The translations under genes and the position numbers were made by a program. Of a stretch of DNA of 60,526 nt, positions 1 to 26,004 are shown one piece after another. Source of the DNA: Legionella sp. W10-070. Lineage in GTDB: Bacteria > Pseudomonadota > Gammaproteobacteria > Legionellales > Legionellaceae. Where the stretch lies: positions 1 through 60,526 of the forward strand of contig NZ_CAAAJC010000018.1 in assembly GCF_900640175.1 (NCBI RefSeq), read 5' to 3'. A model generated the notes under the pieces. That model searched no databases and was not told the DNA's origin. It saw only the letters and a list, made by a program, of their open reading frames with translations. Every line of letters begins with the position of its first letter. The first letter of the stretch is position 1.

Positions 1-150
1 CTAAAAACAAAATTGAAGAATGGCGACAGGATTATAATGATTTCCGACCTCATTCCTCACTGAACAATTTGACTCCAAATCAGTTCAAACAGAAGGTGTT
101 AGGTGCCGGTTTTTCTAATTAATACCGGATCGGTTTTGGGGAGAGGATCA
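1..150 (+). mobile_element. Right end of an IS3-family insertion sequence (partial)
   Basis: The first 122 bases encode the C-terminus of an IS3-family OrfB transposase. They are followed by a terminal segment that closes with gagaggatca at 141-150, so the element ends in CA as IS3-family elements do. Past base 150 the sequence switches to the interior of an IS982-type transposase gene on the other strand, which sets the junction. The left end of the element lies outside the window, so the target duplication cannot be checked. Confidence 0.7.
3..122 (+). CDS. IS3-family transposase OrfB, C-terminal fragment (cut by window edge)
   Basis: The frame beginning at base 3 is open to a TAA at 120-122 and encodes 39 residues. 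They include WRQDYNDFRPHSSLNNLTP, the signature C-terminal part of the DDE integrase core of IS3-family OrfB proteins (W..dYN..RPHs.L...TP). In this family OrfB is normally made as an OrfAB frameshift fusion that cuts and joins DNA ends. Only the last portion is present here, so neither completeness nor the frameshift signal can be judged. The stop lies 28 bases before the inferred element end, a usual distance. Confidence 0.8.
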   Translation, partial: KNKIEEWRQDYNDFRPHSSLNNLTPNQFKQKVLGAGFSN

Positions 151-333
151 CCGCCATATACCGGCGTCCGTATCTTTTCCTAAAAACTCCCCAACAATAT
201 CCATCATAATCACTTCTGCGTCTGACATCTTCGGCTCAAACCCTCGGCTTCTCAATCGTTTAGCCTCAGTGATCTTTTTTAGCTCAACATCTACCAGACA
301 ATACACAGCAATGATAAAATCTTCAACTGACAC
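148..333 (-). pseudogene. IS982-family transposase, N-terminal remnant
   Basis: Sixty-one residues resemble the N-terminus of IS982-type DDE transposases: MSVEDFIIAVYCLVD at the start, then LRSRGFEPKMSDAEVI and the conserved IVGEFLGKDTDAGIW block at about residues 46-60. Family members are usually around 270-300 residues, so the catalytic domain is missing. Homology stops exactly where the IS3 terminus begins (base 150), and the reading frame then closes at once with R-stop. The simplest reading is that an IS3 element inserted into, or recombined with, this older IS982 copy. Not functional. Confidence 0.75.
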
Positions 334-457
334 AGCCTTACTCCTTGTAATTTCTGATTTTTTCGAAACAAAAATTACAATAAAAGGCTTTGTCTTTCAA
401 ATTTAGTTCAATTCAGACTGAGAAAAGTCGAACATCGCGTTAACTAAGGGATTCGCC
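334..457. other. IS982 leader and probable terminal region next to the hydrolase start
   Basis: This stretch is the upstream side of the truncated IS982 transposase, with a purine-rich RBS for it at about 340-345. By the usual layout of the family, the element end should fall roughly 80-120 bases from the transposase start, that is about 415-450, near gcgttaactaaggg. The AAGGG there also serves as a plausible RBS for the + strand gene starting at 458. If so, the element runs almost to the start codon of the next gene and has displaced its native promoter. Confidence 0.35.
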
Positions 458-1360
458 ATGCCTAAATTTTTTAAAACTAATATACTACATAAAGACTTCT
501 ATATAGTTAGTTTCTTATATAAGGCTGAATTGCCATATATTTTGTTTATTCATGGTGGTCCAGGGTTAAATAGTGCAGTTTTGGAATGCTTAATAGAAAA
601 TGAAGAAATATTTAGCTCTCTTGAATTTAATATTATTTTATATGATCAACGGAATTGTGGTAGATCAATTCGCTCTGAAATGACAGTTCTGCATAAGCAC
701 AATATTGATGATCTCCATGAAATGGTTACATATCTATCACAAGTTCAAAATTTTAAAATAGCATGTATAGCTGGCCATAGTTATGGTGCTAAATTACTAT
801 ATGATTATTATAAAAAATATGATGCTCAATACCCAGGTATATTCATATCTACTGCCGAATCAATCACTATACCTCGTGTGAATAATTTAATGCTTGATTT
901 AAATTATCTCAAAAGAACCCATCCTGAAAAATATCAAGAAATAGTTAAAGATATGGTTACATTAGATAGTGGCAATCTATGGAAAATATCAGAAGAGTTA
1001 GCTCATGTTTTTCAAGAAAACAAAGAAAGAATTTATTTCTATTGGGCTAATTTAGACCGTATGAGTCGAGTAGTAGAAATTCAGAGTAAGATTGGGATTC
1101 AAATTAATAAAGACGTTTTTACAAGTGTGAGAAAAGATCTTTATACGGATGATTCTAACTCTTCTGTTGCCATTGATGAATTAAGCATTAGAAAAGTATG
1201 GATAAATGGAGCTCAGGATTTAGTCATGAACGGTCCAAGTGGAGCTTTTTCAAATAAATATAAAGTTAAAACCTTTTTCAATTCTGCTCATTATCCACAT
1301 ATAGAAGAAGAAGAAAAATTTTGCCAACTGGTTAATGGCTTTGTTAATAGTAATGAATAA
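458..1360 (+). CDS. Alpha/beta hydrolase, prolyl iminopeptidase-like (peptidase S33 type)
   Basis: This is a 300-residue soluble protein with no signal peptide. HGGPG at residues 32-36 forms the oxyanion hole, DQRNCGRS at 63-70 is the strand-4 motif typical of prolyl iminopeptidases (DQRGCGRS in the family), and GHSYG at 106-110 carries the likely nucleophile Ser108. Asp254 (AQDLV) and His278 (SAHYPH) complete a credible triad. Substrate cannot be named: the family includes aminopeptidases, lactonases and esterases. It leads a three-gene AT-rich run with a 37-base gap to the receptor gene, so it may make or remove the ligand sensed by the downstream proteins (inference). Base composition is far below that of the core genes to the right, pointing to horizontal transfer. 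Confidence 0.8.
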   Translation: MPKFFKTNILHKDFYIVSFLYKAELPYILFIHGGPGLNSAVLECLIENEEIFSSLEFNIILYDQRNCGRSIRSEMTVLHKHNIDDLHEMVTYLSQVQNFKIACIAGHSYGAKLLYDYYKKYDAQYPGIFISTAESITIPRVNNLMLDLNYLKRTHPEKYQEIVKDMVTLDSGNLWKISEELAHVFQENKERIYFYWANLDRMSRVVEIQSKIGIQINKDVFTSVRKDLYTDDSNSSVAIDELSIRKVWINGAQDLVMNGPSGAFSNKYKVKTFFNSAHYPHIEEEEKFCQLVNGFVNSNE

Positions 1361-1397
1361 TTCATTTTAATTAGCATTATATAAGGTCTGTTAGCCA

Positions 1398-2510
1398 ATG
1401 ATTAAAGCCATTATACCTTCAAAAAGCTTTGGAAATTTATTGGTTGGGTTGTGGGGTATATCAAGCTTAATATTTATGACTAGTCCGTTTGCAGCTAGAA
1501 CAATCTGTTTAACAGGTCGTATTGTAGAAAGTATTGGTAGCTATGGTCAATCCTTTCATCGTGCTGCTGAGATGGCACTTGAAGAAAATAATAATTTAAA
1601 AAATAAGATTCAATTAAAATACTATTTTTATGACAATAAACCCCTCCAACCCATTCATATATATCATAAAATGTTAGATGATGATTGTTCCGCAATAATA
1701 GGTTTTGAGTATTTATCTGATCTTCTTTTAGTAATAAAAGAACAAAGAACAACTAACATTCCAATTTTTACGTCTTATGCAAGTTTTTTATCAACTGATA
1801 AAATACCTAATAATGTTTTTGTATTTATGCCCACCTATGATGATCATGCTGCAACAATGGTTGAGTTTTTAGAAAAGAAGTTTGCTGATCTAAGTGACTT
1901 GTTACTAATTACTGAAGTAAATCGTGAAGAAATGTTGAAATATAAGAAAGCTTATTTAAAGGAGCTTTTTAAAAGAAATATTCAATTTTATTCATATGAT
2001 TTCTTAACAAATGATCCATTGTTTTTGGAAAAGTTAAAAAAGTACATGAAAAATAAAAAATATAGGCATGTGGTTCTATTGTCTAGTGCAACAACGTCTG
2101 CCAAGATTGTGGATTTTTTAAAAAGCTTAGATGTTGTTTATATTGGTACTGAAAATTTCGGATCTACTGTCAGTCCATCCTTTTACACTAGACTTACCAA
2201 TAAAAATATTAACGCTTATTTTATTAGAAACCTTGATTATATTAAAAGCGGGAAAAAATTGTCATCCTATAAAGAAAAATATGTTTTAAGGTTTAAAAGT
2301 TTACCTACCGTCATGTCAGCCTACACCTATGACGCAGTAAACATTATCTTGAAGGCCTTTATGCAAACTGGATCAATGGATACTGATAATATTTATAAGA
2401 TAAATCATAGGGGAATAACTGGAGCTTACATCAAAAACCATAAGTTTTTTCGCTCCAACAAGTATACAGTTCTGTCTGTCTATGCTGATGGATACCATTA
2501 TGAAAAGTAA
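1398..2510 (+). CDS. Periplasmic ligand-binding protein, Leu/Ile/Val-receptor type (Peripla_BP_6-like)
   Basis: This 370-residue protein has a hydrophobic N-terminal export segment at about residues 12-32, suggesting a periplasmic or membrane-tethered product. The body has the layout of type I periplasmic binding proteins: ICLTGRI early, GQSFHRAAEMALEE at about 50-63, alternating strand/helix segments, and a late KYVLRFKSLPTVMSAYTYDA block that matches the 'F...fg..P...aaYDav' hinge helix of LivJ-type receptors. No ABC permease or ATPase gene is nearby. The gene overlaps the next one, a sensor histidine kinase. A receptor that presents a ligand to a kinase, as LuxP/LuxQ or TorT/TorS do, is therefore more likely than transport (inference). 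Strongly AT-rich. Confidence 0.7.
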   Translation: MIKAIIPSKSFGNLLVGLWGISSLIFMTSPFAARTICLTGRIVESIGSYGQSFHRAAEMALEENNNLKNKIQLKYYFYDNKPLQPIHIYHKMLDDDCSAIIGFEYLSDLLLVIKEQRTTNIPIFTSYASFLSTDKIPNNVFVFMPTYDDHAATMVEFLEKKFADLSDLLLITEVNREEMLKYKKAYLKELFKRNIQFYSYDFLTNDPLFLEKLKKYMKNKKYRHVVLLSSATTSAKIVDFLKSLDVVYIGTENFGSTVSPSFYTRLTNKNINAYFIRNLDYIKSGKKLSSYKEKYVLRFKSLPTVMSAYTYDAVNIILKAFMQTGSMDTDNIYKINHRGITGAYIKNHKFFRSNKYTVLSVYADGYHYEK

Positions 2511-3978
2511 GTCACTTTCTATTAAAAACGTTTTTTTTAGAAAAATGGGCTGCTCTGCTATTTTTCAAATAATTTTCCTTAGTATATTCTTGATTCTTAG
2601 CCAGCAATTTATTACCAAATATCAAAATAACGAGATAAGAGAATCCTTAATTATTAATGACACCTTTTCATTAGAAGAGATTACCCAATATGTTTTACTT
2701 AACAATCAGAATGCACTAGATTTGGCTCTGTTAAATTTAGCTCAAGAACGCAAAATGGATCATATAAAATTTGTACCTGCAAGAGATATAAGATTAGATA
2801 GTCTAAATTGCTCTGGTAAAAAAAATATTGAGGGCATTTGTCATAAAAAAGGTAATTTTTTTATGGGGGTAACCCGCATTGAAAATCGAGATAAAACTTT
2901 AGGTTTTGTGCTTTCTGAAAAAAAATATAAGGCTTTTTTTTCAATTCCTGTAACAAAAGGATTGGTATTTATCATAGCTATTGTTCTTATAATTTATATC
3001 TTTAATACTCTCTTTATATTGTTGTCTATGCGTAAAATTATTGCTAAAGATACTAAGAATTTAATTGACTATATTCACGATCTAAAACATGGAATATCTC
3101 CTAATTTATCAGTTATAAGCATAACAGAGTACAAAGACATCGCTCAGCGATTTATAAATGAACACGAGCAAATATTATTCCTCCAACAAGATAAACTATA
3201 TTATGAAACAAAGAAGGAGATTTCAGAACAAGTTGCTCATGATATTCGCTCACCCATTGCGGCAATTAATGCTATTGTTTCAACCTTGGAAAACGTACCA
3301 AAAGAAAAGTTATATCTGATTAAGAATTCAGCAGACAGAATAAATGATATTGCTAATAACTTACTTTTAAATTCAGGTAACCATAGTTCTGATGTTATTC
3401 ATAACATTGATGACGCTCATCCAGAATTAATATATAAGATGTTAGATAATCTTGTTTATGAAAAAAGATACGAATACAAAGATTTGGATATAAATATTAC
3501 ACTTAACTCTAATAAAGAAGATAAAAATTGTTACTCATTGGTAAATAGCGTTAAATTTATCCGCGTGATGTCTAATTTGATTAATAACAGTGTTGATGCG
3601 ATTAAAGGTTCTGGCAATATTGGAATAGTATTGAAAGCAGACAATGACTTCGTCAATATCATTCTTACAGATAATGGTTGTGGCATTCCTGAAAATATTT
3701 TACCTCATATATGCAATCGAGGTTTTAGTTTTAATAGAGAAAAAAATTCAGGCCTAGGGCTATTCTTTGCTAACCAATATATTAATCAGATAAATGGCTG
3801 CATGGAGATAAATTCAGTAGTGAATAACGGAACAATAATTACAATTAAATTAATTAGAACACAATGTAAAAGTACCAGGCAATATCATATCGAACAAGCG
3901 CATAGATTGGCTGTAGATAAAGTACGCCATTTTAACGAAAAATCTGCGGACAAAATTGTAGTAAAATCAAATGGTTAA
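2482..3978 (+). CDS. Membrane sensor histidine kinase
   Basis: This is a 498-residue kinase. TM1 lies at about 24-44, followed by a periplasmic sensor region of about 115 residues containing Cys110 and Cys120, then TM2 at about 160-183. The H-box reads EQVAHDIRSPIAA with His253. The N-box is VMSNLINNSVDAI (about 363-374), the G1 box TDNGCGIP (396-403) and the G2 box SGLGLFF (423-429), so all ATP-binding motifs look intact. The start overlaps the receptor gene. An alternative ATG at 2500 reduces the overlap to 11 bases. No receiver domain is fused and no response regulator gene is next door, so the phosphoacceptor must be elsewhere or lost. A tail of about 40 residues follows the ATPase domain with no recognisable family. 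Confidence 0.85.
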   Translation: MLMDTIMKSKSLSIKNVFFRKMGCSAIFQIIFLSIFLILSQQFITKYQNNEIRESLIINDTFSLEEITQYVLLNNQNALDLALLNLAQERKMDHIKFVPARDIRLDSLNCSGKKNIEGICHKKGNFFMGVTRIENRDKTLGFVLSEKKYKAFFSIPVTKGLVFIIAIVLIIYIFNTLFILLSMRKIIAKDTKNLIDYIHDLKHGISPNLSVISITEYKDIAQRFINEHEQILFLQQDKLYYETKKEISEQVAHDIRSPIAAINAIVSTLENVPKEKLYLIKNSADRINDIANNLLLNSGNHSSDVIHNIDDAHPELIYKMLDNLVYEKRYEYKDLDINITLNSNKEDKNCYSLVNSVKFIRVMSNLINNSVDAIKGSGNIGIVLKADNDFVNIILTDNGCGIPENILPHICNRGFSFNREKNSGLGLFFANQYINQINGCMEINSVVNNGTIITIKLIRTQCKSTRQYHIEQAHRLAVDKVRHFNEKSADKIVVKSNG

Positions 3979-4185
3979 AATGACACTAGGGATCATAGTC
4001 CGTTGGTATTCAATTTTAAAAAAGATACTTTAAATCTTCTTCTAAGAATAAACAAAATAGAGCATAAAGATAAAAATTGGCTTGCTACAAAACAATGTTT
4101 AGATGACTTTGTAACTATTAGATTTTTTTAACCCAATTCATCCGTGGCCCAGAATGCCTCGAAATATCATTATAAACAACCAGAA
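3979..4185. other. Gene-free stretch after the kinase, with possible decayed receiver sequence
   Basis: In the same frame as the kinase, codons stay open from 3979 to a TAA at 4129-4131 without a start codon. The segment ends WLATKQCLDDFVTIRFF, loosely like the end of a receiver domain (CL..GmDDFvtKPF). It may be a remnant of a fused or adjacent response regulator, but the match is short. From about 4132 the composition changes toward that of the core genes, suggesting the island edge lies here. No terminator is evident. Confidence 0.3.
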
Positions 4186-5085
4186 TCAAAACTGGCTTTC
4201 ATTACAGCATTGATATAATTGCTTTACCTCTTCCATATGAGCCAGCATAAACTCAAGTGCCAGCAAAGTATTTTTCGCCTCCTCATTCCATGCTCGGTTT
4301 AAGTTGTAGGCATACCAAAGCAACCAGCTGTGTAAAGCCATCTCCCAAAGAATAGGGTCTGGTGTGGGAATCTTACCTGCCTGTTGGCCATAACCGCTGA
4401 CAACGGCCTGAAACAATGCTTTATTGAATCCGGTAGCGGCTAATCCAGAACAGTTGGTTGCAAGGCCTATCAATTCGACAAAAGGATGTATAAGTCCCGC
4501 ACTCTCCCAGTCAATCAGGCAGGGGGTTTGCTCATCTCGCCAAACAATATTGCCAAGATGAAGGTCGCGATGGCTGACTACCCTTTGATTAGCCCGATAA
4601 AAGCGATAATGATTACACTGGTCAACCAGAGAAGATAACCAGGGAGGATGAGACTGCGTCTGGGGCAGGCATACAGGGGGAAATCCTTCGGCCTCATCCC
4701 CAGGCAAGCTGAGCAAATGCAGCCTGGCAAGCATTTTTCCCAAAGAGAAAGCCTGGCTTTCCTTAACAGCGCCTATGATCTTTCCTTCACAATATGGAAA
4801 GATCTGGAAACAGGCTTCTCCAAAACCGGAAAGGTTTCCCTGATATTTAGCGGTTACTGCCATCACTGACTCTGCAGCCCTGCCAGCAATGTCATTGGTC
4901 AATTCAAGCCGCTGACGGGACATCGTCCCAAGCCAGATTTGTTTGGATAATTTTTTACATACCCATTTGCTATGATCGCCAAGCTCAATCAAATCAGTTT
5001 GGTGTTGCAAGCCGCCTTTTAAAACGGTGATTGCCCTGACGGGCTGGTTAAAGAAAATACCTGACCAATGCAGCCTTTTATTCAT
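4186..5085 (-). CDS. Aminoglycoside/choline kinase-type phosphotransferase (APH family)
   Basis: This is a 299-residue small-molecule kinase of the APH fold. The catalytic Brenner-type loop is HRDLHLGNIVW at residues 172-182 (Asp174, Asn179), and the magnesium-binding LIDWES lies at 190-195 (Asp192). The ATP-binding N-lobe is less conserved, and LKGGLQHQ at 22-29 may be the glycine-rich part. The acceptor cannot be told from sequence. Choline, thiamine, a sugar or a hexosamine are all options, and drug resistance should not be assumed. The start overlaps the stop of the upstream bPH gene by 8 bases, so the two are probably co-translated. Confidence 0.8.
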   Translation of the reverse strand: MNKRLHWSGIFFNQPVRAITVLKGGLQHQTDLIELGDHSKWVCKKLSKQIWLGTMSRQRLELTNDIAGRAAESVMAVTAKYQGNLSGFGEACFQIFPYCEGKIIGAVKESQAFSLGKMLARLHLLSLPGDEAEGFPPVCLPQTQSHPPWLSSLVDQCNHYRFYRANQRVVSHRDLHLGNIVWRDEQTPCLIDWESAGLIHPFVELIGLATNCSGLAATGFNKALFQAVVSGYGQQAGKIPTPDPILWEMALHSWLLWYAYNLNRAWNEEAKNTLLALEFMLAHMEEVKQLYQCCNESQF

Positions 5086-5500
5086 GCATTAACTGTTCAA
5101 TATAGCGCCTGCAAGTCAATGGCCTATCAAGAAAATTGATCATATGACGAGTACCGCCAGTTCCTGTGATAATTAATGAGCCGTAGCGTAAGATACTTCC
5201 AATAACTGATTGGCGAATATCAATGCTTTCTATTTTTGACAAGGGGATATCAATGGTTTGCCTTACCAGCATACCCGTTCGCAAAATAACCTGCTTTTTC
5301 TTAATCGTCAGCGACGAAAAATGATAAGTGACCCAGGTCATCACTGTCCAGGCTAAGGCAAAAAGCACTAAAAAAATAGCCACTTCCCTTAAGTGACCAA
5401 TCTGAGAACCGATAAATATTGCAAAACAGGCAAGTGCGATCGGCCAAAAGAATAAAATCCAATGAAGTCTTGCCAGGTACACTACATTGCTGTCTGTCAT
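5078..5500 (-). CDS. Membrane protein with bacterial PH (bPH2/YdbT-like) domain
   Basis: I place the start at ATG 5500 (MTDSNVVYLARLHW), giving 140 residues, because AAGGA sits 7 bases upstream. A longer frame to 5584 lacks such a site. Two hydrophobic segments lie at about residues 14-32 and 38-56 (WILFFWPIALACFAIF, VAIFLVLFALAWTVMTW). A bPH2-type domain follows: TIKKKQVILRTGMLVRQ, then IPLSKIESIDIRQSVIG and a terminal GTGG..HMINF block. The family is membrane-bound and of largely unknown role. It overlaps the phosphotransferase gene and diverges from the DciA-like gene across about 80 bases that must hold both promoters. Confidence 0.75.
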   Translation of the reverse strand: MTDSNVVYLARLHWILFFWPIALACFAIFIGSQIGHLREVAIFLVLFALAWTVMTWVTYHFSSLTIKKKQVILRTGMLVRQTIDIPLSKIESIDIRQSVIGSILRYGSLIITGTGGTRHMINFLDRPLTCRRYIEQLMHE

Positions 5501-5582
5501 TAAAATATCCTTTTGTATCGTAAAATTGGATATAATATTGCAGATAATAGAAATTTGCCATGTTAAAAGAGATTGATCTACC

Positions 5583-6002
5583 ATGCGCCCTATCAGTCAT
5601 TGCTTAAATAACCAGCTATCGAAAATCTGCCAACATACTCTGCAACTGGATGCACTGGATGCATTATTGAAGTCCAGTCTTCCCCCTCATCTGGTTGGGC
5701 ACTGTCAGACAGGCGGTTTTTCCAAAGGATGTTTAACGATTAGCATAGACAATGCAAGCTGGGCGACCGAATTACGTTATCTTCTTCCGGAGCTACGCGA
5801 TAAGCTGAGAAAAGAGGCAGGTCTGTATCAACTTGTTTCCATTAAAATTGCTATTAAACATGCCGATGCCCCTGCCAAAGCCAAAAAACAAAAGAAAGCA
5901 GCAACGCTTTCATCGGCAGCACGTGTTGCCATTCGAGCTGCAAGCGAACAATGTGACGATCCCACTTTAAAGGGAGCATTACAACAATTAGCCAGAGAGT
6001 AA
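5583..6002 (+). CDS. dciA: DUF721 protein, DciA-like replicative helicase loader
   Basis: This 139-residue protein shows the DUF721 pattern: an N-terminal segment of short helices, then a domain with GCLTISIDNASWATELRYLL at about 48-68, where 'W...Lr.l...l...L' is the family hallmark. A basic linker follows (KAKKQKKAA, about 99-107). In bacteria without DnaC/DnaI, DciA proteins load DnaB at the origin, and the gene is often found near lpxC and secA in gammaproteobacteria. Here it sits close to lpxC, with one unknown gene between, which supports the assignment. The symbol rests on family and context, not on direct evidence. Confidence 0.7.
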   Translation: MRPISHCLNNQLSKICQHTLQLDALDALLKSSLPPHLVGHCQTGGFSKGCLTISIDNASWATELRYLLPELRDKLRKEAGLYQLVSIKIAIKHADAPAKAKKQKKAATLSSAARVAIRAASEQCDDPTLKGALQQLARE

Positions 6003-18501: not shown

Positions 18502-19824
18502 TCAACCTATTAGTTGATGTACAATTTTCTCCATCTTCGAGGCCCGTGAGCCTTTTACCAGTACCGTTGTATCGGCATCAAGCGTTAAAAGCAAATCCCG
18601 GACCAACGCCTCCTGGTTATTATAATGCCTGGCATTCTCTCCAAATATGTTGCTCGCATACTCACTATCCACGCCATAAGTTAGCAGTAAATCAACGCCC
18701 TGATGCAAAGCAACATGCCCCACTTGCTCATGATGTTCACGTGTCCAGGAGCCAAGCTCTCCCATGTCTCCTAAAACAAGAATACGGCGCCCCTGACGCC
18801 TGGCCAAAATATCAACCGCAACCAATACAGAGTGGAGGTTGGCATTGTAGGTATCATCGATAACCAGGGAATTATTTTTACCGTCAAGAAAGGTCATTCG
18901 CCCAGCGACACCACGAAATTGATTTAAACCGCTAACGATATCAGCCAACCCAATCCCTGCCGCATAACAACAACAAGCGGCAGCCAGAGCGTTACGCATC
19001 GTATGTTCACCCGGGACCTGCATCATCACCCTGGCTTCACCCAAAGGCAGAACCATCTCAAAATGTGCACAGCCCCGCTCATCGTAGGCAATATTTTTTG
19101 CATAAACATCGGCTGTTTTTGTCAGTGAAAAACGCAAAACTTGCTTATCGCCAAGCATCTCATCCCAAAAATGAGCATAATCATCATCTTCATTGACTAC
19201 GACCGTCCCTACTGTCGCTGCATAGATCTCCCCCTTTGCCCGGGCAACACCCTCAATCGAACCAAACTCGCCAATATGCGCCGGAGCAATGTTATTAATC
19301 AGGGCGATGTCAGGCTTGACCAGCCCGGCCGTATAAGCAATTTCCCCTATGTGATTGGCACCCAGCTCAAAGACTGCATATCGATGCTCGGTCTTTAATT
19401 GCAACACGCTAAGTGGCACACCAATATGATTATTGAGATTCCCGAGTGTTGCATGAGCAGGCTTTGGCAAGATTGACGCAATCATGTCCTTCACCGTTGT
19501 CTTGCCATTGCTGCCTGTTAATGCAATCACCGGACAAGTGATTGTCTGGCGATGCCAGGCAGCAATTTGTGCCAATGCCTTCAAGGTATCCTTTACGATA
19601 AACTGGGGAATGGATACCGGCCTGCTCGCCTGAGTGCAAACAACAGCAATAGCCCCCTTTGCTGCTGCTTCCTCAATAAAATCATGCCCGTCAAAGCGCT
19701 CGCCTTTCACGGCAATGAATAAATCGCCGGACTTAACCTGACGGCTATCAATCGTTACACCAGTAATGACTGCATTACTGTCACAAGAACTATTCAGTAC
19801 TGAGGCTATTTGAGTTAAATTCAT
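18502..19824 (-). CDS. murF: UDP-N-acetylmuramoyl-tripeptide--D-alanyl-D-alanine ligase
   Basis: MurF attaches the D-Ala-D-Ala made by Ddl to the UDP-MurNAc tripeptide. The protein is 440 residues long. It begins with ITGVTIDSRQVKSGDLFIA at about 20-38 (the conserved Mur N-domain DSR motif), has the P-loop LTGSNGKTTVKDM at about 102-114, NNHIGVPLSVL at about 133-143, INNIAPAHIGEF at about 181-192 and VIDDTYNANLHS at about 314-325. murE and the earlier dcw genes do not precede it. The DUF167 gene lies 90 bases upstream instead. Confidence 0.95.
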   Translation of the reverse strand: MNLTQIASVLNSSCDSNAVITGVTIDSRQVKSGDLFIAVKGERFDGHDFIEEAAAKGAIAVVCTQASRPVSIPQFIVKDTLKALAQIAAWHRQTITCPVIALTGSNGKTTVKDMIASILPKPAHATLGNLNNHIGVPLSVLQLKTEHRYAVFELGANHIGEIAYTAGLVKPDIALINNIAPAHIGEFGSIEGVARAKGEIYAATVGTVVVNEDDDYAHFWDEMLGDKQVLRFSLTKTADVYAKNIAYDERGCAHFEMVLPLGEARVMMQVPGEHTMRNALAAACCCYAAGIGLADIVSGLNQFRGVAGRMTFLDGKNNSLVIDDTYNANLHSVLVAVDILARRQGRRILVLGDMGELGSWTREHHEQVGHVALHQGVDLLLTYGVDSEYASNIFGENARHYNNQEALVRDLLLTLDADTTVLVKGSRASKMEKIVHQLIG

Positions 19825-20226: not shown

Positions 20227-20917
20227 CCTCCCTGATATCGAGTAAGCGATAATAGTAAGCCATCCTCTCTTTCGTCAGTGGCTTGCGCTTATCATCAAGC
20301 AGATAGGTATCCAATCCGTCACGCAGTTGTTTTGCTGTTTCATACATAATGTCGAAGCGTTCTGCATCGATCGTAGGATTGCCTGAAGAATGCATAAACA
20401 GACAAAGTCCCCGTACGCTGAAAGCGCCGATATTCTGTAAATCAAAAACACCGCTTGCTGTCGCTGCAGCCAGGCTGCAAACTATCGGCCCCTGACCATT
20501 GGGATACTGGTGGCGATGAAACAAGCTGCCTTCCCCAAAGCGCAAGCCAGCAGCCAGGATTGTCTGCAACAGCTCATAACCGGCCAATTGCCGATTTTCT
20601 TTAGCCAACAAAAACATCATTAAGGATTTGCCTGACTCAGAGTTTCCGGTTTGTAACTCCTCTTTTAACTCACCAATGGCCGGTTTTTTTGCATTCGTCT
20701 GCGCCGTAACGTTCTTGTCTGTCTCGCTTTCAGCCACATTGTTAACCTTGCGCACAGCAATGATATCATCGAATTGCCTGCTTTCTACCTGGCCTAGCGA
20801 AGGTTGATAATTGACGGGGTTTAAATTCTGCCGTCTTACCTTCATCAAACGCCCTATTGCAGCCACCACGCCAACTAATAATAAAATATTAAGGATAAGA
20901 CTCCAGTTTGCCCCCAT
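20204..20917 (-). CDS. zipA: Cell division protein ZipA
   Basis: ZipA anchors FtsZ filaments to the inner membrane in gammaproteobacteria. The 237-residue protein has the expected plan. An N-terminal TM lies at about 6-23 (LILNILLLVGVVAAIGRL), followed by a basic stretch (KVRRQN), a low-complexity linker to about residue 95, and a C-terminal FtsZ-binding domain beginning SLMMFLLAKENRQLAGYELL at about 98-117. GEGSLFHRH, QNIGAFSVRGLCLFM and a final helix follow. It is shorter than E. coli ZipA (328), with most of the loss in the linker. smc lies 39 bases upstream. ligA, a common neighbour, is absent. Confidence 0.9.
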   Translation of the reverse strand: MGANWSLILNILLLVGVVAAIGRLMKVRRQNLNPVNYQPSLGQVESRQFDDIIAVRKVNNVAESETDKNVTAQTNAKKPAIGELKEELQTGNSESGKSLMMFLLAKENRQLAGYELLQTILAAGLRFGEGSLFHRHQYPNGQGPIVCSLAAATASGVFDLQNIGAFSVRGLCLFMHSSGNPTIDAERFDIMYETAKQLRDGLDTYLLDDKRKPLTKERMAYYYRLLDIREVDELSLA

Positions 20918-24544: not shown

Positions 24545-25525
24545 TCAGAATTCTAGTAACACGGTACCCCAGGTATAACCGGCACCAAATCCGCTGAGTA
24601 AAATTAAATCTCCTTTCTTGATTTTTCCTTCCTGGAAAGCAGCATTGAAAGCAAGCGGGATAGAAGCAGCGGAAGTATTGCCATGCTTATCAAGCGAGAT
24701 CAGTATTTTTTCCATCGGGATATCAAGATTATGTGCTATCGCTTTAAGAATACGGATATTTGCCTGATGAGGGATAAAATATTTAATATCCGTTGTAGTT
24801 AATTTGTTAAATTCTAAAGCCTGCTGAATCTCATTACTAAACCGTTCAACTGCTTGTTTAAAAACCTGCTTCCCATTCATTTGCAGGTAGGGCTTGTTCT
24901 TTGCCATTCCTTGCATGCCTTGGCCAACCCCCCAGGGTATCTGCAGCTCCTCGACTCCAGCCCCATCAGAGCCAAGCTTGCAATAAAAGATTCCCCTGCC
25001 ATCATCCAAAGGAGAACGCGATAATAAAAAAGCACCAAAACCATCACCAAACAAAATAGCCGTTGCTCTGTCTGTCTTATCAATAATTTTAGAGAAAACA
25101 TCACATCCAAGGACTAGAGCGTAGTTAATGTCGGGATTGGCCTGCATGAAATAATAAGCACTGGACAGAGCATAAACAAAACCACTGCATGCAGCCTGCA
25201 TATCAAAGGCAATCGCATTATCGATACCCAGTTTTCTCTGCACCATTGCTGCACTGCTCGGCATCAATTGATAGGGGGTAGTTGTGGCGATGATAATTAA
25301 ATCAATTTGCTGGTTGGAAATGCCTCCTCGGTTAATCGCAGTCAATGCTGCCTGACAGCTGCAATCAATAAAATTTTCATTATCATCCAGTATGTGGCGT
25401 TCTTTTATACCCGTCATCTGGCTAATCCAGTTATCCGTTGTATCTAAAAGCACTTCCAACTCTTTATTTGTCAGCGTTTTGTTAGGAAGATAACCACCAC
25501 AAGACAAAATTTTTATAGCTTCCAT
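24545..25525 (-). CDS. FabH-like beta-ketoacyl synthase III
   Basis: This 326-residue thiolase-fold enzyme has the KAS III triad: Cys113 in QAACSGFVYAL, His253 in IPHQANIRIL and Asn283 in HGNTSAASIP. Normal FabH condenses acetyl-CoA with malonyl-ACP to start fatty acid synthesis, but the housekeeping copy usually sits in a plsX-fabH-fabD cluster, which is not here. This copy is divergent from phaC. FabH homologues such as NphT7 can make acetoacetyl-CoA from acetyl- and malonyl-CoA, so it may supply PHA precursor in a locus that shows no phaA thiolase (inference). The start ATG 25525 is followed by MEAIKILSCGGYLP, the normal N-terminus. Confidence 0.85.
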   Translation of the reverse strand: MEAIKILSCGGYLPNKTLTNKELEVLLDTTDNWISQMTGIKERHILDDNENFIDCSCQAALTAINRGGISNQQIDLIIIATTTPYQLMPSSAAMVQRKLGIDNAIAFDMQAACSGFVYALSSAYYFMQANPDINYALVLGCDVFSKIIDKTDRATAILFGDGFGAFLLSRSPLDDGRGIFYCKLGSDGAGVEELQIPWGVGQGMQGMAKNKPYLQMNGKQVFKQAVERFSNEIQQALEFNKLTTTDIKYFIPHQANIRILKAIAHNLDIPMEKILISLDKHGNTSAASIPLAFNAAFQEGKIKKGDLILLSGFGAGYTWGTVLLEF

Positions 25526-25958
25526 TAATTATCCCAACCTCAAAATAGTCATAATTACTTAAACAGACTCCAAACTGCCATTCTGGCTTTCCTGCTCAGG
25601 TATCAAAGACTCTGTCAATACAGACAGGTAGCTGACATAGATTTTACTTAGTGTAGGATACCTAATTGATGTTTTCAATTTTTACAAACTGCTTTTTTTT
25701 GGTTTTATGCGCCATTTTAATGCCAACCCGCTTTAATTTTTTCGCTATTTTTAACCGATTTAACCAATGATTCCTGTTGGCTTTTAAATGATTTTAGTTT
25801 TGATTTAATTGATTAATTCTGCTTAAATTAACCTTTGATATTTATTAAAAAATGACTTTAACCTCTCTATCCGCAGAATGCATCAACCGAGGCAGGAAAA
25901 AGATCAATAATATATATACAGATGAAAGCAAAAAAAAGCCTGCAGTGGGCGATAGATT

Positions 25959-25995
25959 TCTCATTAATAATGACTTATCACTGCTCTTAATGAGA
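25959..25995. repeat. 9-base inverted repeat upstream of phaC
   Basis: TCTCATTAA (25959-25967) is mirrored by TTAATGAGA (25987-25995) with 19 bases between, centred about 70 bases before the phaC start. The spacing of half-sites is about two helical turns plus, compatible with a dimeric regulator. No factor is identified. Confidence 0.35.
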
Positions 25996-26004
25996 TTTTA
26001 TTTG

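Follow-up and report, generated by a model that had tools for sequence, protein, structure and literature searches.

A hydrolase, receptor and kinase trio of Legionella as the possible signal-and-receptor half of a swappable signalling cassette

What do three closely packed, AT-rich genes near the edge of a Legionella contig do, and do they form a signalling system by themselves? The genes encode a hydrolase resembling proline iminopeptidases (PIPs), an exported periplasmic binding protein (PBP) that we call the receptor, and a histidine kinase (Table 1). They lie in a stretch of 60,526 nucleotides from Legionella sp. W10-070 (NZ_CAAAJC010000018.1), hereafter the window, which is the entire contig C18 of a 2.7-Mb genome (G000). 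A preliminary description, made from the sequence letters, had taken the trio for a candidate new signalling system. This stands insofar as the trio is a conserved unit, but it is not the whole system: relatives add a regulator, a putative histidine phosphotransfer (HPt)-like protein and a helix-turn-helix (HTH) protein, a related block lies on contig C8 of the window's genome, and the enzyme-sensor pair is swapped for others elsewhere. The reading that we favour, with evenly balanced confidence, is that the trio supplies the signal and receptor side of a cell-cell signalling cassette whose parts can be swapped.

Three AT-rich genes conserved as a unit

The coordinates and translations bear out the arrangement first described, with three open reading frames (ORFs) on the plus strand, a gap of 37 bases between the hydrolase and receptor genes, and an overlap between the receptor and kinase genes of 29 bases if the kinase starts at ATG 2482 or 11 bases if it starts at ATG 2500. 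The latter start is the likelier one, because aligned homologues start there and the 11-base overlap is also found in a plasmid copy (L037). The protein assignments hold as well: Pfam matches were obtained to Abhydrolase_1 (E = 7e-10), Peripla_BP_6 (2e-11), HisKA (2.5e-6) and HATPase_c (1.8e-15), and by eye the hydrolase translation contains HGGPG, DQRNCGRS and GHSYG, and that of the kinase the H, N, G1, F and G2 boxes and two transmembrane (TM) segments. The AT-rich lines noticed at the outset (G+C counts per 60-base line of 15 at 1321, 15 at 1561 and 13 at 3421, against 27 at 4561) belong to a span that has the lowest G+C among 571 equal windows tested, with 29.5% in the trio versus 44.5% in the surroundings. 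The module also lies below its surroundings in all 11 loci compared (27.9-33.8% versus 31.7-44.5%), and AT-richness is therefore a property of the module, not merely a sign of recent arrival in the window.

Table 1. Positions of the trio, its flanking frames and shared block, and the peptide cluster found in the same lineage.
Feature	Location	Strand	Remarks
PIP-like alpha/beta hydrolase	458-1360	+	300 aa; no signal peptide by eye
LivJ/LivK-type (Peripla_BP_6) receptor	1398-2510	+	370 aa; N-terminal signal segment by eye
Two-TM histidine kinase without receiver domain	2500-3978 (likely start 2500)	+	longest ORF 2482-3978, 498 aa
Block common to the window and L046 (genome G075)	441-3868	+	86.8% nucleotide identity
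Presumed end of an IS3-type transposase reading frame (label by eye)	1-120	+	contig starts here
Presumed start of a transposase-like frame (label by eye)	147-345	-	
Putative graspetide-type cluster of ribosomally synthesized and post-translationally modified peptides (RiPP), with GG-leader precursor and C39 exporter	1748-8669 of L135 (C8, window's genome); 667-2748 of L139		

Among 143 genomes of the order, we found the receptor family (E = 1e-57 or better) at 25 places in 24 genomes and the hydrolase family (1e-86 or better) at 27 places in 26 genomes. All 25 receptor places also encode the hydrolase, which rules out a chance neighbourhood. Only two of the 27 hydrolase places are without the receptor, one of them visibly broken (L087) and the other (L086) on a contig of 11.5 kb that also bears an SDR gene. 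The hydrolase homologues are thus not scattered through the genomes, as they might have been had the preliminary grouping been fortuitous, and as judged from sequence the hydrolase, exported receptor and sensor kinase are inherited as one unit.

The family appears to be confined to Legionellaceae at the sensitivity of the scans used. A scan of genome_contigs with two receptor peptide patterns gave 22 loci, 20 of them in Legionella, Fluoribacter, Tatlockia or Legionellaceae and the remaining two in one metagenome-assembled genome, 'Proteobacteria bacterium LEG1'. In a class-wide sample, two of 369 genomes matched, namely the window's own and one with a partial match in a 1143-aa frame. A broad distribution was rejected on these two scans, both of limited sensitivity. 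A commonly phage-borne trio was rejected too, as 14 pattern matches in a viral contig scan included no relative.

A six-part cassette on conjugative plasmids

Four Legionella plasmid records carry the receptor, every one typed conjugative, and the two studied closely are of the MOBF/MPF_F type. Their genes follow the order HTH/S24-like protein, hydrolase, receptor, 701-aa kinase and 75-aa protein, with a regulator gene facing them; tra/traT/csrA genes flank the cassette on one side and parA/parB/repB on the other. The 701-aa kinase has an ATPase domain followed by two receiver-like domains (weak Pfam scores). In the 75-aa protein (HPT75), H11 and N15 are invariant in 13 aligned sequences and resemble the H-box of a phosphotransfer helix, so that we infer a putative HPt/DHp-like phosphotransfer protein. 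The regulator matches PDB 6sy9 (E = 3e-41, residues 8-329 of 330), which we take to be LqsR (the record is titled 'Response regulator'), and by this similarity it is assigned to the LqsR family. It does not seem to be an ordinary chromosomal LqsR: the only match in the window's genome (on C24) is 29% identical, versus 38-100% for those near cassettes.

Altogether 27 loci were mapped, consisting of 25 genome loci and two plasmid records, many of them near-identical, so that independent cases are fewer. The hydrolase is present at 27, the kinase at 25, the HTH protein at 24, and HPT75 and LqsR at 21 each; among the neighbours, CsrA was counted at 18, TraA at 17, TraT at 16 and ParA at 15. All six parts (HTH, hydrolase, receptor, hybrid kinase, HPT75, LqsR) occur together at 21 of the 27 loci. 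The plasmid gene order is kept in 18 of these 21, with L040, L041 and L055 rearranged, and some six-part loci (L039, L049, L057) have a broken or partial gene. The kinase is missing from L042 and L051 only, both broken loci, and the missing parts of L062 and L051 were located on other contigs (L101 and L099).

Some of these loci and a more distant one show further features. In L041 (6309-7184) an HPT75-like domain is fused to a PF04199 cyclase in a single protein. The 1.7-kb gap between LqsR and ParA in L037 contains five 15-base direct repeats (20676-20793; a sixth lies at 19585), possibly iterons or partition sites; Rfam gave no match on six loci, this gap included. On plasmid 4 of Aquicella lusitana (L128, 10001-12441), a relative of the HTH protein (30% identical) is followed by a thioesterase, an Autoind_bind-domain protein and an SDR, and F-type tra genes adjoin; the arrangement of the first three supports, by its predicted domains, a signalling slot.

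Enzyme and sensor are swapped together

Other front ends were reached by searching LqsR and the kinase core alone, the latter giving 64 matches in 47 of the 143 genomes. With HPT75, HTH and LqsR retained, a GNAT enzyme and a multi-TM sensor (TM counts by eye) occupy the place of hydrolase and receptor at L088, L095 and L096, and a cyclase and a multi-TM sensor at L091; L097 carries GNAT, HPT75 and LqsR. At further loci the kinase core is kept with fewer of the other parts within reach. At L044 and L043 the enzyme is an SDR or nitroreductase and its partners are PBP-like proteins, whose similarity comes from blastp, Pfam giving no match; at L218, L220 and L221 isochorismatase goes with SBP_bac_8. 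ABM at L170/L205 stands next to a protein of 343 aa that has no Pfam match and occupies the receptor position. Prolyl oligopeptidase is coupled to SBP_bac_5 at L213, L216 and L217, another alpha/beta hydrolase accompanies a protein of the ANF-receptor type at L206 (and, by blastp, at L207), and the slot enzyme of L209 is a nonribosomal peptide synthetase (NRPS)-reductase.

To the window we added 46 hand-chosen loci, omitting redundant and the weakest kinase-core matches, and dropped kinases at least 90% identical (49 reduced to 40). The 40 dereplicated kinases form 10 sensor clusters; a library enzyme lies nearby in 32, and eight of the ten clusters have one. An enzyme family is common to 56 of 85 same-sensor pairs, and 5000 label shuffles gave a mean of 12.7 and a maximum of 38, none reaching 56, a result that is not to be read as a probability since the loci are related. 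In the sensor cluster of the window, hydrolase and receptor are present in nine of nine. As far as sequence comparison goes, then, a change of sensor goes with a change of enzyme family, whereas the kinase core can still be recognised, and joint variation of this kind is what one would expect of an enzyme acting on the ligand of its sensor.

The kinase core of L037 is 67, 70, 74 and 76% identical to cores joined to unrelated multi-TM sensors (in G134, G100, G122 and G062), versus 47, 49, 53, 57, 60, 67, 68 and 68% for cores of its own sensor type outside a group at 85-100%. The higher identity to kinases with unrelated sensors points to exchange at the sensor/kinase border. One sensor type can also meet two outputs, LqsR or a shorter regulator described below (RR47): type S1 does so in L037 (LqsR) and L047 (RR47), and type S0 in L088 (LqsR) and L165 (RR47). 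The LqsR output mostly adjoins conjugation or partition genes, and the RR47 output, together with its HTH partner HTH47, adjoins a putative graspetide-type peptide cluster in some genomes.

The loci with prolyl oligopeptidase are of interest in their own right. L213 (10196-13956), L216 and L217 encode a prolyl oligopeptidase/DPPIV-type peptidase, an SBP_bac_5 receptor and a kinase, with an LqsR-like regulator nearby, and represent a candidate peptide-signal cassette.

What the hydrolase and the receptor may act on

Residues S108, D254 and H278 of the hydrolase are invariant in 15 aligned family members, and by homology they would be catalytic. Its best NCBIfam matches are proline iminopeptidases, at scores far below the cut-offs (47.8 versus 500 and 45.9 versus 167.65 bits), on which grounds a true PIP was rejected. 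It resembles the PIP/tricorn factor F1 group (S33) in its N-terminal half and nucleophile region and differs in the C-terminal part, which aligns weakly (2 bits). With a pLDDT of 75.6 the structural model is moderately good, and the structures that it matches do not point to a particular substrate.

We favour a hydrolase that makes or finishes the signal, because adjacency of synthase and sensor is the rule in quorum systems and many slot enzymes are of biosynthetic types; quenching, nutrient sensing and peptide autoinduction are the rivals placed after it. Genes for an autoinducer synthase and its cognate sensor are usually adjacent, according to a 2012 review (PMC3376566). Quenching seems unlikely to us: here the hydrolase would destroy or trim an imported or self-made ligand, made elsewhere, and so reset or tune the receptor. 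Its hydrolase fold and lack of a recognisable signal peptide suit such a role, as do an N-acyl homoserine lactonase, AidH, among the weak structural matches (E = 1.2e-3), the UilS lactonase among the weak NCBIfam matches (E = 0.017) and the isochorismatase-like slot enzyme, which is also of a hydrolase family. However, the AidH match is unspecific, many hydrolases scoring alike, and the GNAT, SDR and NRPS-reductase slot enzymes (transferase, reductase and synthetase types) fit signal making better.

The receptor model (pLDDT 82.6) matches LivK 3td9 with a TM-score of 0.76, and other amino-acid and aromatic-acid receptors match too; a profile match was obtained to LivJ 4gnr (E = 9e-8). In this alignment an A-S pair and E252 of the receptor (invariant in 12 aligned) come near the A-T and D of LivJ, positions that we take to have ligand-related roles. 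These are hints that the ligand may be amino-acid-like. A LivH/LivM-type permease (BPD_transp_2) gave no match in the window's genome, G075, G037, G092 and G106 and one match in G052, in a search that matched 12 of 14 control genomes. We therefore reject a role of the receptor in a LivHMGF transporter of the window's genome, a membership that, had it held, would have told against the preliminary description. The same results bear on whether receptor and kinase detect a nutrient or host metabolite, an amino acid or related compound, with the hydrolase as a catabolic gene of the regulon. The LivJ/LivK-type fold is compatible with this, and nutrient-sensing PBP-kinase pairs are known. We nevertheless regard it as unlikely, given the missing permease in five of the six genomes tested, the absence of such a transporter from the annotation near both plasmid copies (an incomplete gene table), the position of the cassette beside csrA, tra, par and LqsR, and an enzyme that tracks the sensor.

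A possibly divided locus in the lineage of the window

In three genomes (the window's, G075 and G037) the kinase stops after the ATPase domain. Behind the G037 trio come the HTH protein HTH47 and the 256-aa regulator RR47, whose genes face each other, and then a peptide cluster. Homologues of RR47 (E = 1e-8) occur in five of the 143 genomes, the three with a short-kinase trio plus G126 and G132, a co-occurrence with a hypergeometric P of 2e-5 if genomes are taken as independent. Contig C8 of the window's genome begins with HTH47 and RR47, the latter as an open frame, and the same peptide cluster comes next. This block is 82% identical in nucleotides to G037 over 5.8 kb, and the similarity starts about 100 bases past the end of the kinase gene in G037. 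These alignments suggest that a single locus of the G037 type has been split between the C18 trio and the C8 block, either by rearrangement or by assembly. In G075 the trio (C93) and RR47/HTH47 (C41) are on separate contigs, with a peptide cluster recognised beside neither. The RR47/HTH47 pair adjoins a GNAT/multi-TM cassette in G132 and an SDR/PBP-like cassette in G126, so by its predicted neighbours the RR47-type output also meets differing cassettes.

The C8 cluster comprises an ATP-grasp peptide maturase (TIGR04187, E = 2e-54, 184.7 bits versus a cut-off of 350), a match to PF21068 MvdD pre-ATP-grasp (28.3 versus a cut-off of 27), a second ATP-grasp protein, HlyD and a 57-aa precursor with a GG leader (TIGR01847, 16.8 versus a cut-off of 15.7 bits, E = 0.007). 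The C39-peptidase ABC exporter was detected by hidden Markov model in the G037 copy, and an ORF lies at the same place in the window's genome. One may ask whether the ligand is the exported graspetide itself or one of its fragments, trimmed by the PIP-like hydrolase, with the kinase regulating its own peptide cluster. The gene order in G037 (trio, HTH47, RR47, then ATP-grasp maturase, GG-leader precursors, HlyD and C39-peptidase exporter), the corresponding block on C8, and the parallel coupling of prolyl oligopeptidase to an SBP_bac_5 (OppA-type) receptor speak for it. We consider such autoinduction distinctly improbable: maturase homologues occur in 68 of the 143 genomes, mostly without the receptor, no peptide cluster was recognised in G075 beside trio or RR47, and LivJ-type sites hold small ligands as a rule. 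The cluster is also not in the two annotated plasmid stretches, and the peptide link is therefore not general.

A second, divergent gene set adjoins the G037 trio (L047, 937-6332) and encodes an alpha/beta hydrolase, a homocysteine S-methyltransferase-like protein, a PBP-like protein, a small exported protein and a hybrid kinase. The hydrolase of this set is met again (90%) in G101 (L167), next to a RiPP cluster.

A possible mechanism and its significance

In the signalling cassette that we favour, the hydrolase would make or finish a small, probably amino-acid-like, diffusible molecule, which the receptor would bind in the periplasm, docking on the periplasmic domain of the kinase (~110 residues). 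The kinase in the window's genome would act in trans on RR47/HTH47 at the start of C8, perhaps also on the peptide cluster there. On the plasmids the relay would act on the HTH protein, csrA and transfer genes, and plasmid transfer would thereby respond to neighbours with the same cassette.

Several points weigh against this proposal. A hydrolase is an unusual signal synthase and could equally degrade the ligand. Enzyme families differ in 29 of the 85 same-sensor pairs, within the multi-TM cluster S0 GNAT, cyclase and ABM genes all occur as partners, eight of the 40 kinases have no library enzyme within 4.5 kb, and the covariation is partly due to shared descent of related loci. RR47 is only weakly LqsR-like (20% identity, E = 6e-4 pairwise; no PDB match at 0.001), is also present without this trio in G126 and G132, and lies on a different contig from the trio in the window's genome. 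The plasmid HTH protein (P0001) has no match in that genome or in G037, with 30-31% matches in G075, and the peptide cluster was not seen in the two annotated plasmid stretches, for which the gene table is incomplete.

The presence of cassettes on conjugative plasmids and near peptide clusters suggests that such elements may use private chemical signals. Going further, and with confidence somewhat short of even, we propose that the mobile elements of Legionellaceae hold an open-ended set of private chemical languages: enzyme-sensor cassettes would recombine before a common kinase core and an LqsR/RR47-type output, conjugative plasmids and peptide clusters would thus recognise cells with the same cassette, and PIP-like hydrolase with LivJ-type receptor would be one language. 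If true, the loci form a natural library of matched enzyme-receptor pairs, each leading to a new bacterial signal, and interest extends well beyond a single window. Quorum-type signalling would then be tied to plasmid transfer in Legionella, including L. longbeachae, whose plasmids carry this cassette and which is given as lacking LqsS/LqsR in PMC2824747. LqsR-like regulators on plasmids would gain a role, and what conjugative plasmids of amoeba-dwelling bacteria listen to would become testable, one pair at a time.

Relation to known systems

We found no description of the cassette family, nor of any system with this hydrolase partner, in the literature searched, in line with the preliminary description. 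The LqsR family, PBP-kinase pairs, phosphorelays, lvr loci and graspetides are known kinds. Among the closest systems is the Lqs system (LqsA-LqsR-LqsS/LqsT) of the same bacterial family, in which sensor kinases likewise converge on a regulator, of the LqsR family in the plasmid cassettes. The cassette differs by its PBP receptor and two-TM kinase, as opposed to the multi-TM LqsS, by its hybrid kinase and HPt-like protein, and in the window's lineage by a shorter, distant regulator. Beside the two plasmid copies the annotation shows no LqsA-type synthase, no dedicated LqsA search having been made, and the two stretches carry LqsR-family genes with neither lqsA nor lqsS annotated in the incomplete gene table. 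In contrast, lqsR clusters with lqsA and lqsS in species harbouring lqsR, per the same 2012 review (PMC3376566). PhcX of Ralstonia is another uncoupled LqsR-family regulator according to PMC10653808, which also cites an LqsR structure paper.

Like LuxP/LuxQ, the trio joins a periplasmic binding protein to a two-TM kinase, with an exported receptor encoded beside a kinase with a periplasmic domain; its receptor is of the LivJ type, whereas LuxP is of the sugar-binding type. Hybrid kinase, HPt and regulator also form the relay of CqsS-LuxU-LuxO in Vibrio (PMC3376566). Unlike Vibrio LuxPQ/CqsS, the cassette operon encodes the enzyme, and its output is LqsR/RR47 instead of LuxO.

The plasmid cassettes sit at a place like that of lvrRABC in Legionella type IV secretion system elements, with P0001 and P0007-P0009 corresponding to LvrR/A/B by position and domain only. 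In those elements an SOS-repressor-like protein, two more genes and CsrA stand beside conjugation genes, and the excerpted part of the source describes no sensor cassette at lvr loci (PMC3864950). Other papers report csrA/rsm genes on 21 of 29 Legionellaceae plasmids (PMC9928087) and a lowering of csrA and raising of rsmY/Z by LAI-1 (PMC5289986), and PMC2824747 notes that a two-component system had earlier been described on a plasmid of L. longbeachae.

Genomic setting of the window copy

Insertion sequence (IS) remnants lie upstream of the trio and ordinary chromosome downstream (lpxC and ftsZ by eye). The span from 458 to 3978 given at first does hold three real ORFs, but the block shared with G075 ends at 3868, beyond which about 37 codons of the kinase frame run into unrelated flanking DNA; these last codons have no counterpart in two aligned short-kinase relatives. 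The L046 block itself sits in a different context, and positions 1-6000 of the window show no further similarity to L046. Such surroundings raise the question whether an element has been excised or rearranged and has left the window copy as a decaying remnant, as the IS remnants, the foreign kinase tail, the lack of an HTH/LqsR neighbour and the regulator on another contig might indicate. We hold this to be quite unlikely, in view of three intact ORFs and an open RR47 frame. Relative to G075, dN/dS is 0.18 for the hydrolase and 0.22 for both receptor and kinase (dS 0.39-0.46), which indicates purifying selection on all three genes as an average since the split, and would be compatible with a recent loss. 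Far from the trio, G+C drops locally to 36% at 25001-26000 of the window, amid sequence of about 45%.

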